A stretch of DNA of 64,000 bases, from the NCBI RefSeq assembly GCF_001898315.1, contig NZ_MKTQ01000010.1, positions 222,678 through 286,677 of the forward strand, in the 5' to 3' direction. This stretch comes from Microbacterium sp. 70-16. GTDB lineage: Bacteria > Actinomycetota > Actinomycetes > Actinomycetales > Microbacteriaceae. The notes under the pieces were generated by a model. The model worked only from the letters and a program-made list of their open reading frames with translations. It made no database searches and was not told the origin of the DNA. Of this stretch, positions 13,484-21,934 are shown piece after piece. The position numbers and the translations under genes were made by a program. Positions within the stretch are counted from its first letter, which is position 1, and every line of letters begins with the position of its first letter.

Positions 13484-15370
13484 ATGGGCATCGAGGTGTG
13501 GGCTCCGCGAGCCGATCGCGTGCGGCTGCGGCGGGCGGGGCATGACGACGTCGAGCTGACGGCGGGGGATGCCGGGTGGTGGCGCACCGACGTCGCGCTC
13601 GCGGCGGGGGATGAGTACGGCTTCGTGCTGGGCGGCGGCCCCTCGACAGGCTCGGCGACCAGTGGCGGCGGCCCCTCGACAGGCTCGGGGGCCAGTGTGG
13701 ACGGCCCCTCGACAGGCTCGGGGGCCAGTCCTACCGACCCGGGGGCCACGCCTGCACGGCCCGACCCGCGGTCGCGGCGCCAGCCGCACGGGGTGCACGA
13801 GCTGTCGGCGTGGGACGACCCGGCATCCTTCACCTGGACCGACCAGAACTGGCCGGGCCGGGCGCTCGCGGGCGGCCTCATCTACGAACTGCACGTCGGC
13901 ACCTTCACTCCCGAGGGCACGCTCGACGCCGCGATCGCGAAGCTGCCCCACCTCGTCGGCCTCGGCGTCACGCACATCGAGCTGCTGCCCGTCAACGGCT
14001 TCAACGGCACCCACAACTGGGGCTACGACGGTGTGCTCTGGTACACCGTGCAGGAAGACTACGGCGGCCCCGAGGCCTACCGCCGCTTCGTCGACGCCGC
14101 CCACGCGGCGGGCCTCGCGGTGATCCAGGACGTCGTCTACAACCACCTCGGTCCGTCCGGAAACTACCTGCCCGAGTTCGGCCCGTACCTGCGCGACGGG
14201 CAGGGCAATACCTGGGGAGCGAGCGTCAACCTCGACGAGCGGGCCGTGCGCGACTTCATCATCGACAACGCGCTGATGTGGCTGCGCGACTTCCACGTCG
14301 ACGGACTGCGGCTGGATGCCGTGCACGCGCTCCACGAGTCGGGCGGCAGCCCCGTGCACATCCTCGCCGAGATCGCCGCGCGCGTCGACGCGCTCTCCGC
14401 CGAATCCGGTCGCCCCCTCACCCTCATCGCCGAGAGCGACCTCAACGACCCGGTGATGATCCTGCCGCGGGAGGCGGGCGGCCATGGCATCCACGCGCAG
14501 TGGGCCGACGACTGGCACCATGCCGTGCACGTCGCCCTCACGGGAGAGACCGGCGGCTACTACGCCGACTTCGCCGACCCGCACGCGCTGCCGAAGACCT
14601 GGAGCGGCGGCTTCTATCACGACGGCACCTACTCCTCTTTCCGCGGCAAGAACTGGGGAGCGCCGGTGCCGGCCGGGGTTCCGTCGTGGCAGCTCGTCAC
14701 CTTCGCGCAGGACCACGACCAGATCGGCAACCGCGCCGCCGGCGACCGGCTGAGTCAGTCCCTCTCGCTGGATCGGCTCGCGGTCGCTGCCGTGCTGACG
14801 ATGACCGCTCCCGGCACCCCGATGCTGTTCATGGGCGAGGAGTGGGGCGCCTCCACGCCGTGGCAGTTCTTCACCTCGCACCCCGAGCCCGAGCTCGCCG
14901 AGGCGACCCGCCGCGGCCGCAAGGCCGAGTTCGCGCGCATGGGCTGGGACGAGTCGCTCGTGCCCGACCCCAACGATCCGGCGACGTTTGCGCGCTCGAA
15001 GCTGGACTGGGCCGAGGCATCCGTCGGCGACCACGCCCGGCTGCTGAGTCTGTACCGCGGCCTCGCGTTCCTGCGACGCACCCACCCCGAACTGACCGAC
15101 ACCGACCGCGCCGGGCACTCCGCCGAGGTGGTCGGCCCGGGCCGCTGGGTGCTGCACCGCGCCGCCGCGCGCGTCTACGTCAACCTGTCGCCCGAGCCGT
15201 GGACGATCGAGGTGGATGCCTCGGAAGAGGTGTGGGTGAGCACGGCGGCGCGCCACGACCGCCCGCGCGAGGAGGGTCCGCTCACGCTGACGCCCGACTC
15301 GGCCGCCGTCGTCGGTCCGCGCACGCCGCCCCTGCCGCGCGGCTACGCCGAGTACACCCGCGTCGAGTAG
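13484..15370 (+). CDS. treZ: Malto-oligosyltrehalose trehalohydrolase
   Basis: [69 protein letters not shown]. Confidence 0.95.
13634..13735. repeat. Three tandem in-frame PSTGSGAS repeats in treZ
   Basis: three copies of ggcccctcgacaggctcggsgrccagt encoding [18 protein letters not shown] and GPSTGSGAS. Confidence 0.85.
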
Positions 15371-15375
15371 GCGCG

Positions 15376-16101
15376 TCAGAACGTCTGCGCGAACGCGCGC
15401 AGGATGCGCGGTGGCTCTGACAGCGACGCCGCGAGCACCTGCGCGGCGATGCGGTCGTAGTCGTGCGCGGCGAAGTACCCGTCGTCGCGGTAGACGGCCA
15501 TGCGCTCGGTGAAGGCGCGGCCGGTCGGCTCGGGGTGGAACTGCGTCGCGTACAGCGTGTCGCCGACGCGGTAGGCCTGCACGGGGCATCCGTCATTGGA
15601 TGCCAGCAGAACAGCGCCCTCCGGCATCCGCTCGGTTCCCTCCTTGTGCGCCGTGAGCGCCGTGAAGGTCTGCGCGAGCGCCCCGAACAGCGGGTCGCGG
15701 CGGCCGTCGTCGGTGAGCGTCACGACGGTGGGTCCGGTGTCTTCGGGGTAGGCGCGGGTGACTTCGCCGCCGAGTGTGCGGGTCGCGATGCCGATGCCGT
15801 AGCAGGTGAACAGCGCCGCCATCTCGCCCGCCGCCGCGCTGCGCGCGAGCAGCGCAAGGCCTGCCTCGACGCCGAGTTGGACGTCGGTCTTGGTCGACTC
15901 GGGGTCGGTCACGTTGAACGGGCTGCCGCCCACGACGGCCCCGCGCCAGCGGGTCGCGAAGTCGGCCGGCAGTGGATCGCGCACGAGATCCCAGCGGTCG
16001 AGTTCGGTCTCCTCCAGCCGCATCGCGGTGCGGAACGACTCATACTCGGCCGCGGCGGCACCCGCCTGTGGACGCGCGCAGAGATAGACGAGCGGGGCCA
16101 T
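15376..16101 (-). CDS. Class I glutamine amidotransferase
   Basis: FTCYGIGIATRTLGG nucleophile region and YATQFHPEPTG His/Glu motif. Confidence 0.85.
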   Translation of the reverse strand: MAPLVYLCARPQAGAAAAEYESFRTAMRLEETELDRWDLVRDPLPADFATRWRGAVVGGSPFNVTDPESTKTDVQLGVEAGLALLARSAAAGEMAALFTCYGIGIATRTLGGEVTRAYPEDTGPTVVTLTDDGRRDPLFGALAQTFTALTAHKEGTERMPEGAVLLASNDGCPVQAYRVGDTLYATQFHPEPTGRAFTERMAVYRDDGYFAAHDYDRIAAQVLAASLSEPPRILRAFAQTF

Positions 16102-16196
16102 GGCGACGATTCTAGGCGGCCGCGCGACGAAGTGCCCGGGCCGTGTATCACGAAGACACTCGCCTGCCTCCTGCTTGTGTGACCAGAATGGGCGGT

Positions 16197-16853
16197 ATGA
16201 CAGAAGCCGACCCTCCGATCCGTCGCGACGTGCCCGAAGGCGCGGTGCCGACCGGCGGAGGGGACCTCGTCGTTCCCGTGACGATCTGGAGTCGTGCGAC
16301 CGACAGCTTCGAACGCTGGCGGGGCGGCGATCCGCGCGCGATGGATGACCTCGTCCGGCTCATGACGCCCGTGCTGTGGCACGTTGTGCGCGCCTACGGG
16401 CTCGAGCAGATGCTCGCCGAAGACGTCGTGCAGGCGACCTGGCTGACACTCGTGCGTCGGCACGAGTCCATCCACGACGCACGCGCGGTGGCCGGCTGGC
16501 TCACCACGTGCGCACGCCGCGAGGCTTGGCGCGCGGGCCGCGCGCACCAGCGTGCGAGACCGACCGACGACGTCGATCTCGAGCCGCTGCTGCCCAGCGA
16601 CCCGTCCGCTGAAGAGAGCGCCCACCTCAGTGAGCGCGACCGTCGCCTGTGGGGCGCCGTCGCGACGCTCGAGGAGCGCTGCCGCCGACTGCTGCGCGTC
16701 GTCGCCTTCGAAGAACGCCCCGACTATGCGCGCATCGCGCAAGACCTCAGCATGCCGGTCGGCTCGATCGGCCCGACCCGGGGCCGCTGCCTCGGAAAGC
16801 TGCGTGTCGCCCTCGAGAAAGACGGATGGAGCGAGGATACCCATGACCTCTGA
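16197..16853 (+). CDS. RNA polymerase sigma-70 factor, ECF-like
   Basis: LMTPVLWHVVRAYGLEQMLAEDVVQATWLTLVRRHESI (region 2) and YARIAQDLSMPVGSIGPTRGRCLGKLRVALE (region 4). Confidence 0.9.
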   Translation: MTEADPPIRRDVPEGAVPTGGGDLVVPVTIWSRATDSFERWRGGDPRAMDDLVRLMTPVLWHVVRAYGLEQMLAEDVVQATWLTLVRRHESIHDARAVAGWLTTCARREAWRAGRAHQRARPTDDVDLEPLLPSDPSAEESAHLSERDRRLWGAVATLEERCRRLLRVVAFEERPDYARIAQDLSMPVGSIGPTRGRCLGKLRVALEKDGWSEDTHDL

Positions 16854-17316
16854 ATCGACCACCGACGACGCGGCGCTGTTCGCCGCGCTGCGTCGCACCT
16901 GGGAAGGCGTCGACCCCGTGCCGGGCGGACTCGTCGACGCGATGATCGCGTCCGTGGCATCCGCCGACCTCGGCCGCGAATACGCGCTGCTGACGCTCAT
17001 CGAGAGCGACGCGACATCCGCCGTGCGAGGGGATGCCGACATGCTCACGCTGCAGTTCAGCGACGGCCACACGAACGTGCTGGTGCACGTGACGCCGACC
17101 GAGCGCGGCCGCAGCCGTCTCGACGGCTGGGTCGACGGCGACGTCGCCGACGTGCGGCTGGTGCAGGACGGCGCCGAAGTGGCGGCCACCTCAGACGGCG
17201 GCCGCTTCTCGTTCGAGGCCGTGCCGCCGGGCATCTCGCGCTTGCGCGTGCGGCTGGCTGCACCGCCCGAGCCCGGCACAGCCGACGAACTTCTGACACC
17301 GCGTTTCGAGATCTGA
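16843..17316 (+). CDS. Small protein with C-terminal transthyretin/carboxypeptidase-regulatory-like beta domain; candidate sigma-associated factor
   Basis: ATG overlaps the end of the sigma gene; TSDGGRFSFEAVPPGISRLRVRL resembles Cna_B/CarboxypepD_reg repeats. Confidence 0.75.
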   Translation: MTSESTTDDAALFAALRRTWEGVDPVPGGLVDAMIASVASADLGREYALLTLIESDATSAVRGDADMLTLQFSDGHTNVLVHVTPTERGRSRLDGWVDGDVADVRLVQDGAEVAATSDGGRFSFEAVPPGISRLRVRLAAPPEPGTADELLTPRFEI

Positions 17317-17357
17317 CCACCCCCCGCCGGTAGGACCGGCCCTGTGAAGGAGCGTGC

Positions 17358-19028
17358 ATGACCCCCGAAGACATCGACGTCCCCGGTGCGCAGCCGAAGG
17401 GGTGGTCGTGGCGCGACCGCGCCCGCGGTGCGATCGTCGAGGCGACCATCCTCGACCCCGGCATCGAACCGCTCGATGGCATCGAGGCGTTCCAGACCGC
17501 ATACGTGCCCGACCGGCTGCTGGTGTCGGACGGCGCTCGGGCGGGACTGCTCGACGACAACCTCCAGCGCGTGCGCGAGGCGGCGGGCGTCTTCGGCTGG
17601 GAGGCCGAGCCCGAGCGGCTCGACGGCACCGCGCTGAAGGACGGCGAGCGGATCGAGGCCCGCCTGCCTGGTGCGCCCGCCGTGATGCGCGTGCGACTGA
17701 CGGCGCGGGAAGGGGCGGATTCTGCCTCTCCCGCCCTCCCTGACGCCTGGCGCGTGCTGCAGCAGGTGCGCCGGATGCTGCTCGCGGGGGACGACGTCGT
17801 GCGTGATGCGAACGGAGGTGTGGATGCCCCGGCGTCGCTGCGGCGCACGGGAGTCGACCGGATCGGCCTCGACCACATCCTCACGGTCGATCCGATCGGG
17901 GTGAACCCGTACACGAAGTCGAACCCGTATACGAAGTCCAACCCGTATACGAAGTCGAACCCGTACACGAAGTCCAACCCCTACACGAAGTCGAACCCGG
18001 TCGGCGAGTACGCCGACTGTGGCTCGGGCGGGCGGCAGCCGGTCGCGTGGATCGGTCCGTCGCCGCGGGTGTCAGCGCTCGAGCGCGGGCACCGTCGTGC
18101 CGTCGTGGCCGTCCTCGACACGGGCATCGGCGCGCACTCGTGGCTGCCCGATGACCTCGTCGACCGTGAGGTGAAGCTCGACGGGCATGTGGTGGGCTTC
18201 AACGACGAGGCGAACCCCGAGGTGTACCCCGACCTCTACGGTCCGCTCGACGGTGAACTCGATCCCGTCGCGGGGCACGGCACGTTCATCGCCGGAATCG
18301 TGCGCCAGGTCGCGCCCGATGCCGAGCTGCTCGCCGTGCGAGTCGCCGATGCGCGCGGCATCGTCGAGGAGTCGAACCTGCTGAAGGTGGTCGAGCAGCT
18401 CGGCATCCTCGTGCAACGACACCGCGACGGGGTCAAGGGTGGGCGCGCGATCGACGTGGTGAACATGTCGCTCGGGTACTACCACGAGACGCCGGAGGAC
18501 GGTCTGTACACACGTGACCTGTACGACCTGCTGAAGGTGCTGCGCGACCTCGGCACGACGATCGTCGTCTCGGCGGGCAACGACGCGACCGACCGCCCGA
18601 GTTTCCCGGCATCGCTGTGGGCGTGGGACGGTGCCGACAACGGCCTTGCTGCTGACAAGGCCGCCGAGCACGTGTCGGTCGGGGCGCTCAACCCCGACTG
18701 CGCCACGACGGCGCTGTTCTCGAACGTGGGCCCGTGGGTGCGCACGTACGCCGTCGGTGCCGCGGTGCTGAGCACGATCCCCGACTTCCGTGGCGGCCTG
18801 CAGGCGACCGCGCGGGATGACCAGTACGCGCGCCGGCGCCTGACGATCGGCCCTGAGGACTATCGCGGCGGCTTCGCGGTCTGGAGCGGAACGTCGTTCG
18901 CGGCGCCGCTCGTGTCGGGCATGATCGCGGCGCGCCTGGGCGCTGTGCCGGAGCAGAAGGAGTCGATCGCGGTCTCGGTCGACGCTGCGCGCGCGGTGGT
19001 GAAGCAGGTGCTCGACGAGCTCGACTAA
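17358..19028 (+). CDS. S8 family serine peptidase (subtilase) with N-terminal NPYTKS repeat tract
   Basis: VVAVLDTGIG (Asp), GHGTFIAGIV (His), WSGTSFAAPLVSGMIA (Ser). Confidence 0.93.
   Translation: MTPEDIDVPGAQPKGWSWRDRARGAIVEATILDPGIEPLDGIEAFQTAYVPDRLLVSDGARAGLLDDNLQRVREAAGVFGWEAEPERLDGTALKDGERIEARLPGAPAVMRVRLTAREGADSASPALPDAWRVLQQVRRMLLAGDDVVRDANGGVDAPASLRRTGVDRIGLDHILTVDPIGVNPYTKSNPYTKSNPYTKSNPYTKSNPYTKSNPVGEYADCGSGGRQPVAWIGPSPRVSALERGHRRAVVAVLDTGIGAHSWLPDDLVDREVKLDGHVVGFNDEANPEVYPDLYGPLDGELDPVAGHGTFIAGIVRQVAPDAELLAVRVADARGIVEESNLLKVVEQLGILVQRHRDGVKGGRAIDVVNMSLGYYHETPEDGLYTRDLYDLLKVLRDLGTTIVVSAGNDATDRPSFPASLWAWDGADNGLAADKAAEHVSVGALNPDCATTALFSNVGPWVRTYAVGAAVLSTIPDFRGGLQATARDDQYARRRLTIGPEDYRGGFAVWSGTSFAAPLVSGMIAARLGAVPEQKESIAVSVDAARAVVKQVLDELD
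17904..17993 (+). repeat. Tandem 18-bp repeat, five full units, encoding (NPYTKS)5
   Basis: aacccgtacacgaagtcg x5 with synonymous changes (tac/tat, tcg/tcc, ccg/ccc). Confidence 0.95.
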
Positions 19029-19043
19029 CCCGTCGGCGCGCCG

Positions 19044-19078
19044 CGAACCCGACCGCCGGTGACACGGTCGGGTTCGCG
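19044..19078. terminator. Stem-loop after the S8 peptidase gene
   Basis: gcgaacccgaccg / cggtcgggttcgc, perfect 13-bp arms 9-nt loop, just after the stop codon; no U tract. Confidence 0.7.
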
Positions 19079-19150
19079 CGCGGCGCGCGCGGTACGCGTG
19101 CTGCGCGGCTTCGCTTCGCGCGCGAGCCGCGAAACGGGCATGCTGGGATC

Positions 19151-21664
19151 GTGACCCTTGAGCCCGCGATAGCCGCGCCGGACCTGTATGCGGCCGCGCT
19201 CGCGCTCACGAACGAACGTCGGTACCGCGAGGCCGAGGCGGCGTTGCAGGGTGTCGCCGCGGTGACCGACGACGTCGAGCTGCACGCGCGGATCGCGGGC
19301 ACGCTCGCGTTCGTGCTCGACCAGACCGGCCGCCCGGCAGAGGGCGAGCAGCTGTGTCGCGAAACGCTGGCGGATGCCGCGCTCAGCGCCCACACACGCG
19401 GCATCGTCGCGGGGCAGCTGGCCAGCATCGTCATGCACCGGGGCCGGCTCGACGAGGCGATCGGCTGGTTCGGACGCGCGATCGACGCGCTCTCGGACGA
19501 CCCGATGGCGGTCGCCAACCTGCGGATGAACCGCAGCGTCGGGGCGATGCAGCGGCGTGACCTCGCGGCGGCCTTCGCCGATCTCGAGGAAGCCGTGGCG
19601 GTCTACGAAGAGCACGGCACGCCCATCGACGTCGCCGAGGCGCGGCACAATCTCGGCTACACGGCGTTGCTCGGCGGCGACCTCATCAGGGCGATGCAGG
19701 AGATGGCCGCAGCGCGCCCCGTCATCGGCGAGGAGTCGGCGGCCAACGCCGCCATCGGCGACGTCGACATGGCCGAGGCCCTGCGCGACGCGGGCCTCGT
19801 CACGGAGGCTGAGCGCCTGCTGCGCGATGCGGCACGTGCGTTCCACAAGAACGGCATGGCGCAGGCCCGCGGTGAGGCCGAGCTGCATCTGGCCCGCTCG
19901 CTGCTGCGCCACGACCCCGCCGATGCGGCGCGTGCCGCCGGCCACGCCGCCCGGCACTTCACGGCGCTCGGCGCGACGTCGTGGGCCGACCGGGCACGGG
20001 GCATCCGTCTGCGTGCGCTCCTTTCCGGCGGCGCGATCGACCGGGCCGGGCGCACGGTCTCCGACGTCGCGGTCGACGATGCCGACGTCACCCCGGTCGC
20101 GGCGGCGCTCACCCGCGCGGGGTTCGCCGGTGAGGCGGCCGCACTGCGCCTGTCGCGCGAGCTGTGGCGCGCGCGCCACGACCGGCCTGCCGGCCGCATG
20201 CCGCGCATCGACGAGGCTGCGTCGCTCGAGGTGCGGATGCTCGCGCACGAAGTGCGCGCGGAGCGCGCCGCCCGCGCCGGCCGCGGTGCGGTGGCGCGCC
20301 GCCACGCGGCATCCGGACTCGACGAGCTCTCGGACTGGCGCGCATCGTTCGGCAGCCTCGATCTGCAGACGTCGTTGTCGATGTACGGCAACAACCTGAT
20401 GCTTGTCGGACTGAGCGCGGCGGTGCAGTCGCGCAGCCCCGAGACAGTCTTCGAATGGTCCGAGCGCGCCCGGCACCTGAGCCTGCAGGTCGTGCCGCTG
20501 CGACCCCCGGCCGACCCCGAGCAGGCGGCCGAACTGAGCGAGCTGCGCATGCTGCGCGCCGACGCCGGCAGCGACGACTGGACGAGCGACCCCCGCGCGA
20601 TCGAACTGGGTGAGCGCCTGCGTCGGCGGCAGTGGACGACGACCGGCGCGGCCGAGATCGAGCGCCCCGTCGATCTTGCGGCCGCGGTCGCAGCGCTGGA
20701 TGTCGACACAGTCCTGCTGAACTACGTGTTCAGCCCGGAGGGGCTGTCGTGCCTCGTCGTCACGACGCGGGGCGCGCAGCTGGTCGACCTGCCCGGCTGG
20801 AGCGAGGCGCGCAAAGCGCTGCCGGCGCTGCGCTCTGACCTGGACATGTCGGCGGCCGTGCGCTCGGGCCCGATGATGGCGATCGTCGGCCGGTCGCTGG
20901 CCGACCACCTCGACCGCCTGTCGACGCTGCTGGTGGCGGCCCCGCTGACCGGCGTCGATGCCCGGCGCATCGTCGTGACGGCACCCGGCGTGCTGGCAGG
21001 GCTCCCGTGGACGATGCTGCCGCATCTGTCCGGTCGCGCGGTGACGGTCGCCCGCTCAGCCTCGCGATGGGTGCTCGGCCGGCGCGCGTCGTCGGTCGAC
21101 GCCGACGTCGCGTTCGTCGTCGGCCCGCGCGTCGCCCGCGGCGTCGAAGAGGCACGGACAGGTGCCGCCGCATGGGCGGCCGCGCGTCCTGCCGACGACT
21201 CGTCGACCGAGCCGGTCGTGCTCACCGGCGCGGATGCCACGGTCGACGCCGTCGGCGGCGCGGCCGCGTCAGCCGACATCCTGCACATCAGCGCGCACGG
21301 CCGGCACGCCCTCGACAACCCGCTGTTCTCCGGTCTGACGCTGGCCGACGGCGCGCTGTTCGGCTACGACATCGACCGGATGCGGCGGGTGTCGGATGTC
21401 GTGATCCTGTCGGCCTGCGAATCGGGGCGCTCGGCCGTGCGGTGGGGCGAGGAGTCGGTGGGGATGACGCGGGCCTGGCAGCACGCCGGCGCGACGGCCG
21501 TGATCGCCGCACCCGTCGTCGTCGCGGACGACGACGCGTGCGAACTGCTCGGGCAGCTGCACGTCGGGCTCGCGGGCGGGCTCGCCCCCGCCGTCGCGCT
21601 CGCCGAGGCGAGTGTGCGCACGGGCATCCGATCGCCGTTCGTCTGCCACGGCAACGGATTCTGA
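19151..21664 (+). CDS. TPR-like repeat plus CHAT (caspase-HetF) protease-domain protein
   Basis: Helical repeats followed by ADILHISAHGRHALDNPLFSGLTLADG (His) and DVVILSACESGRSAVRWGEE (Cys) dyad. Confidence 0.92.
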   Translation: MTLEPAIAAPDLYAAALALTNERRYREAEAALQGVAAVTDDVELHARIAGTLAFVLDQTGRPAEGEQLCRETLADAALSAHTRGIVAGQLASIVMHRGRLDEAIGWFGRAIDALSDDPMAVANLRMNRSVGAMQRRDLAAAFADLEEAVAVYEEHGTPIDVAEARHNLGYTALLGGDLIRAMQEMAAARPVIGEESAANAAIGDVDMAEALRDAGLVTEAERLLRDAARAFHKNGMAQARGEAELHLARSLLRHDPADAARAAGHAARHFTALGATSWADRARGIRLRALLSGGAIDRAGRTVSDVAVDDADVTPVAAALTRAGFAGEAAALRLSRELWRARHDRPAGRMPRIDEAASLEVRMLAHEVRAERAARAGRGAVARRHAASGLDELSDWRASFGSLDLQTSLSMYGNNLMLVGLSAAVQSRSPETVFEWSERARHLSLQVVPLRPPADPEQAAELSELRMLRADAGSDDWTSDPRAIELGERLRRRQWTTTGAAEIERPVDLAAAVAALDVDTVLLNYVFSPEGLSCLVVTTRGAQLVDLPGWSEARKALPALRSDLDMSAAVRSGPMMAIVGRSLADHLDRLSTLLVAAPLTGVDARRIVVTAPGVLAGLPWTMLPHLSGRAVTVARSASRWVLGRRASSVDADVAFVVGPRVARGVEEARTGAAAWAAARPADDSSTEPVVLTGADATVDAVGGAAASADILHISAHGRHALDNPLFSGLTLADGALFGYDIDRMRRVSDVVILSACESGRSAVRWGEESVGMTRAWQHAGATAVIAAPVVVADDDACELLGQLHVGLAGGLAPAVALAEASVRTGIRSPFVCHGNGF

Positions 21665-21934
21665 GATTTTCTCACGCAGATGTATCAGGGGTGAGGGGGG
21701 CGCCTCTTGATCATCGGAAGGACCGTTCGGTGCCGACGGATACGGATGCACCGGGCCACCACTGGGGAGAGGTGGCATCCGGTCAGTCCGCAGGACGGCG
21801 GTTCGGGGGGATCTATGCCCGTCCGAAGGGTCGGCGATGCTGGGGCTCGCCGGCCCTTCTGCCGTGCCCGGGTGGGCCGCTGAGCGATGGGGCCGGGCGG
21901 TCGGCGGCTTGCCGGGTGAGGCGGTCGGGCGGCG

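Follow-up and report, generated by a model that had tools for sequence, protein, structure and literature searches.

An ECF54-like sigma factor locus in Microbacterium with a repeat-bearing subtilisin-like protease, a predicted promoter pair and a candidate structured RNA

We analysed a stretch of 64 000 nt (hereafter the window) from the 3.1 Mb genome of Microbacterium sp. 70-16 (contig NZ_MKTQ01000010.1), which carries on its plus strand four consecutive genes for a sigma factor of the extracytoplasmic function (ECF) type, a small protein and two proteases. The first gene (16197-16853) encodes an ECF54-like sigma factor of 218 residues, with matches to Sigma70_r2 in Pfam (E 1.7e-8) and to TIGR02937 in NCBIfam (E 4e-18); region 4 was seen as an invariant MPxGSIGxTRxRCL block in an alignment of 17 homologues. 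The second gene (16843-17316), coding for a small two-domain protein of 157 residues, has its ATG inside the sigma gene, so that it overlaps the end of the sigma gene, stop codon included, by 11 nt. The third gene (17358-19028) encodes an S8 protease (Peptidase_S8, E 1e-21) and the fourth (19151-21664) an 837-residue protein with tetratricopeptide repeats (TPR) and a CHAT protease domain (E 1e-25), both according to Pfam. The first-pass annotation, made from the letters of the DNA, had described four intact co-directional open reading frames at these positions, recognisable sigma regions 2 and 4, the overlapping start of the small protein and intact S8 and CHAT motifs; all of this is borne out. 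Both protease active sites are under strict conservation: in 81 homologous operons the S8 residues Asp, His, Asn and Ser are invariant, and the CHAT dyad keeps its His in 79 and its Cys in 80.

The small protein was detected in 60 of 119 Microbacterium genomes; a sample of 396 genomes from across Actinomycetota gave 34 with it, a lower bound given the query used. Searches with tblastn at 95 Microbacterium loci found sigma, small protein, S8 and CHAT together in nearly all loci with sufficient flanks, and in distant families the small protein adjoins the same genes in varying order and orientation. This four-gene linkage is far beyond chance, and the check proposed earlier, whether sigma, S8 and CHAT stay linked in other actinobacteria, thus returned a conserved unit in Actinomycetota. 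At about half of the 95 loci the operon has the same GATase and LysR/hexapeptide flanks; there it has been inherited stably at one chromosomal place surrounded by housekeeping genes, not in a defence island.

Such a locus is of a known kind. We place it in an ECF54-like sigma group, an assignment resting on gene neighbourhood. Huang 2015 and Casas-Pastor 2021 are said to have dealt with the ECF54 group. In the excerpted text of a review, carboxypeptidase-like, subtilase and CHAT neighbours are described as conserved around ECF54, and proteolytic control is proposed (PMC8999054); the central idea of the first-pass annotation therefore already stands in print as a proposal. The window resembles this description in its actinobacterial ECF-type sigma and its subtilase and CHAT neighbours, whereas the carboxypeptidase-like match of the small protein stays below threshold (CarboxypepD_reg in Pfam, E 0.023). 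Three features are unexpected variants on the known theme, and were also absent from the first-pass annotation: a tandem NPYTKS array in the S8 protease, a pair of predicted promoters and a candidate structured RNA. The same excerpts do not mention them, though a promoter motif for the group may stand in the primary papers.

In the AlphaFold2 model of the S8 protease (predicted template modelling score 0.86) we observed a confident propeptide domain at about residues 30-180 and a confident catalytic domain; residues 184-232 are predicted to be disordered (predicted local distance difference test, pLDDT, <50), and this stretch holds the array. Foldseek aligned ~500 columns of the model to pro-subtilisins, propeptide included (e.g. 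3afg, 3whi and PCSK9); the S8 profile also matches intracellular subtilisins, and no signal peptide was apparent by eye. Judging by the model, the protein is probably a cytosolic pro-subtilisin-like zymogen with a full folded propeptide domain; taken together with its array, this appears to be new.

The array itself consists of five copies of NPYTKS (residues 183-212; 17904-17993, plus strand) at the junction between prodomain and catalytic domain. Tandem arrays of two to nine copies, with a unit of 5-8 residues, occupy this junction in nearly all Microbacterium copies of the protease. The unit is uniform inside one protein and differs from species to species (NPFTRT, NPFSRT, NPYGST, NPFKA, NPFTG, NPHGMT, GYGDGV and others); in other classes the arrays are of GGPFTS, GHPFWG, NPAYQG and similar units. 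Some relatives have a single unrepeated junction, e.g. LNHVIAGQPKYQGFP, which suggests that the arrays amplify an ancestral junction motif.

Tandem copies whose number varies between species could be a neutral by-product of DNA slippage. We find this hardly credible: in 90 arrays the copies within one protein are near synonymous saturation, with a proportion of synonymous differences (pS) of 0.52, and yet nearly identical in amino acids, with a nonsynonymous proportion (pN) of 0.0095 (pN/pS 0.018). Copies differ from one another in their codons by up to 0.37, where independent choice of codons would give 0.42; recent homogenisation of the copies was also considered and is rejected by these synonymous data. 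Furthermore, five pairs of close relatives differ in their motif, through about two independent switches; within these pairs codon agreement is 0.84 at corresponding copy positions and 0.57 between different copies. The codons thus track copy position, and the peptide has changed in parallel in every copy with no homogenisation of the DNA. In 64 hexamer arrays, motif positions 3-5 have changed at least 10-15 times. Distant families have acquired several motifs at this junction that look unrelated to each other, a further point against slippage. Comparison of the sequences indicates that what is under selection is the likeness of the copies, not any particular sequence, and this implies a recognition partner.

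The most likely role of the peptides would be that of repeated self-processing or pseudosubstrate sites, each binding the same cleft or partner. Pro-Phe at P2-P1 is a classic subtilisin preference. Intracellular subtilisins block their own active site with a LIPY/F motif (PMC6220982). Given this motif and that preference, a Pro-aromatic pair at the propeptide junction fits a processing or pseudosubstrate site. The window protease shares with intracellular subtilisins a Pro-aromatic motif ahead of the catalytic domain and probably the cytosolic setting (PMC6220982); it differs in having a folded propeptide domain and an NP-aromatic tandem array in place of a short LIPY/F propeptide.

A more elaborate proposal would have the activated S8 protease cut its own array into identical peptides of 5-8 residues, a message inside the cell to be picked up by the TPR domain of the CHAT protein (or else the array would be a multivalent dock for CHAT); the message would have drifted between lineages while the copies within one protein were forced to stay alike. 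We regard this as quite a long shot. The CHAT TPR profile does match a Rap protein (6t3h, E 1.6e-7), as one among many TPR proteins. A coevolution scan of the operon, of limited power, found no residue outside the array that co-changes with it beyond multiple-testing expectation; it thus found none of the receptor-peptide co-variation looked for under signalling of the RRNPP type, and it is a first point against the broader interpretation given below.

Upstream of the sigma gene lies a predicted sigma-dependent operon promoter, GTATCA-N17-CTCC (16145-16171, plus strand). The GTATCA element precedes sigma in all 93 non-redundant loci, with CTC 16-17 nt further on in most of them, and the strict pattern is matched at sigma in 81 loci. 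A pattern search found a second predicted promoter, GTATCA-N16-CTCT, directly after the CHAT gene (21682-21707, plus strand); in most of 82 loci such a copy lies a few to some tens of nt past the CHAT stop codon. Genomes with the operon have 3.28 promoter matches on average, against 0.37 in those without it, most of which thus have none (P 7e-21), and control patterns gave 1.08 and 1.03, respectively. In distant families the element also precedes genes of the operon, often as divergent pairs. GTATCA-N16/17-CTC before the operon and after the CHAT stop is thus a predicted promoter of this sigma factor, and it appears to be new. The looser pattern TGTATCA-N15-18-CTC has three matches in the window genome, two of them at the locus. 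Across genomes, promoter matches away from the operon mostly resemble chance or prophage sites. Prophage-like repressor operators at two loci (L173 and L174) match the promoter pattern via a GTACC palindrome, probably by coincidence.

No conserved open reading frame or protein was found after the second promoter in Microbacterium. What follows it in the window is a candidate structured non-coding RNA (21708-21860, plus strand) with a terminal hairpin at ~21825-21859. In a clade of 24 relatives the RNA has 33 base pairs, and 15 of these have changed on both sides; shuffled alignments gave 7.4 such pairs and slid controls 2-6. The motif UGGGG is enriched, with 2.3 occurrences per 200 nt (0.74 in shuffles) and 1.2 within hairpin loops (0.19 in shuffles); the folding z score of the window RNA is -2.3. 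When 119 genomes were searched with a covariance model, 17 strong hits resulted; every one is in a genome bearing the operon, and most abut the promoter. In two of these genomes (G001 and G034) a distance of 8-12 kb separates the RNA from the small-protein gene, and in G001 the RNA still stands directly behind the promoter.

The window RNA matches the covariance model (R1) in the terminal hairpin only, and in the rest of the window clade, too, the model recovers no more than that hairpin; RNAs of this clade are more divergent, and their own alignment supports mainly the terminal stem. Rfam gave no match for the window, and for one relative (L123) only low-scoring matches to eukaryotic and viral microRNAs. 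With these qualifications, what follows the second promoter seems to be a structured non-coding RNA whose stems covary and which is linked to the operon; it appears to be new. Both this neighbouring RNA and the operon itself appear to be under the control of the sigma factor. At another locus (L179; G480 C15 near 156239) a second promoter with a copy of an RNA having GGGG loops was seen ~3 kb from the first.

In some other actinobacteria the second promoter is found before protein-coding genes. It lies ~4.7 kb from the first in three Streptomyces-like genomes, and in one of them (L166) the gene behind it scores above the NCBIfam cut-off for AbsR2. In Streptomyces coelicolor AbsR2 is SCO6993, a negative regulator of antibiotic production (PMC9628970). 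The Streptomyces-like genomes resemble the absR1/absR2 region (SCO6992/SCO6993) in having the sigma, small-protein, S8 and CHAT genes beside an absR2 homologue with the same promoter; the Microbacterium operon differs in having no adjacent absR2 homologue, the structured RNA taking the position of the second target. At L166 the promoter-bearing absR2 homologue stands beside a divergent metalloprotease-like open reading frame that resembles the description of SCO6992 (14913-16877 and 16948-18033). Elsewhere the targets are a divergent unit for HopA1-like and LanC-like proteins (L036), a divergent phosphotransferase gene (L153) and a gene for a trypsin/Nal1-like protein (L151).

We favour, at about an even chance, an intracellular module of the ECF54 type with protease-controlled release of sigma, positive autoregulation and one local output. 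The sigma factor would be held in an inactive state, and the translationally coupled small protein is the most likely agent of this. A signal would activate the TPR-CHAT and S8 proteases, the S8 zymogen being held until then by its subtilisin-type propeptide; the proteases would cleave either the small protein or one another and free the sigma factor, which would then transcribe from the GTATCA-N16/17-CTC promoters. Its targets in Microbacterium would be its own operon, as positive feedback, and the adjacent structured RNA, and in the Streptomyces-like relatives the second target would be absR2, a gene for a LuxR-type regulator. Gene linkage, active sites and the array with its selection, like the propeptide fold, the promoter pair and the RNA covariation, come from computation; sequestration, cleavage, the order of events and the signal, along with the functions of array and RNA, are what we infer from them. 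For ECF54 the excerpts of the review give no more than a proposed mechanism (PMC8999054); the promoter, the minimal predicted regulon (the operon itself together with a single RNA or with AbsR2) and the array protease make that proposal directly testable in Microbacterium strains, which are small and can be cultured.

The small protein is a candidate anti-sigma factor or protease substrate or inhibitor. Its AlphaFold2 model (mean pLDDT 86) has two N-terminal helices, a flexible linker of low confidence and a C-terminal beta sandwich. Several further observations weigh against sigma release as outlined. No known anti-sigma domain turned up when the small protein was searched against Pfam, and the model had no confident PDB match; the ECF54 proposal assumes no anti-sigma factor, to judge from the excerpts (PMC8999054). 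At two distant loci (L150 and L152) a single sigma gene goes with two or three small-protein genes, every one of which adjoins a CHAT or S8 gene; this makes a dedicated sequestering role uncertain. Finally, no S8 was found within 12 kb at one locus (L035) that has sigma, small protein and CHAT, and no CHAT nearby at another (L133) that has S8, so that neither protease seems strictly required.

Two rival explanations are the strongest. In the first, rather unlikely in our estimate, S8 and CHAT degrade sigma itself to keep it off, and no anti-sigma factor exists. The excerpted review has this proposal in print for ECF54 (PMC8999054), and the missing anti-sigma domain agrees with it; it leaves the coupled and always-present small protein without a role, and the sigma factor, given that the operon promoter looks sigma-dependent, would drive its own destroyers, which is possible as negative feedback. 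In the second, which we hold unlikely, the small protein is no anti-sigma factor but goes with the proteases, as their partner, inhibitor or substrate. The logic would be that of IPI, an Ig-like inhibitor of intracellular proteases that reportedly acts on Bacillus subtilis Isp1 (PMC3901451). The beta-sandwich domain and the match of the S8 profile to intracellular subtilisins suit it, as do the L150 and L152 modules, in which the small protein is repeated with CHAT and S8 under one sigma. The start codon coupling the small protein to sigma in Microbacterium speaks against it; so do seven loci (L037, L155, L156, L159 and L163-L165) where sigma and small protein are kept and no S8 or CHAT was found in the searched stretch. 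The tandem S8-small-CHAT modules of L150 and L152 have a further property: every S8 protein there has its own array motif.

Protease-controlled sigma release has a precedent in the Csx29-Csx30-sigma relay of type III-E CASP (PMC10028731). There, as here, a TPR-CHAT protease, a candidate sigma-binding protein and an ECF-like sigma are encoded together, and the two may work alike; Csx30 has 565 residues against 157 in the small protein, and the S8 zymogen is extra here. The type III-E CASP (Craspase) system is a fair functional analogy, not the same family. The absence of a CRISPR link, claimed by the first-pass annotation, was upheld in that no Cas1 was found in the window genome; no Cas7-11 or CRISPR RNA was seen, Cas7-11 not itself having been searched for. 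The relay from protease to sigma suggested there is plausible without CRISPR, given the conserved unit, the strict active sites and the conserved sigma promoter; the idea itself is not new.

The same annotation leaned towards phage defence. In such a relay, infection would activate CHAT and a protective or suicidal response would follow. Patchy presence among Microbacterium genomes (60 of 119), the type III-E precedent and weak matches of some relatives' CHAT proteins to the PADLOC BovA model are in its favour. The fixed housekeeping location at about half of the loci and the antibiotic regulator beside the Streptomyces counterpart make it very unlikely. No phage match was found for the small protein, and PLSDB gave a single weak one; with PADLOC the window CHAT gave no hit at E 0.001, and comparison with known defence proteins gave only weak generic subtilase/IetS and BovA matches. 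The defence slant is thus poorly supported.

Among minor observations, the divergent sigma-promoter units of L036 (2761-4898) and L153 (24-848), taken as a set of HopA1-like, LanC-like and phosphotransferase proteins, recall enzymes of class V lanthipeptides. In the window a perfect 14-nt inverted repeat (19042-19078, no strand assigned) lies between the S8 and CHAT genes; it would form a hairpin in the transcript, possibly an attenuator or a terminator.

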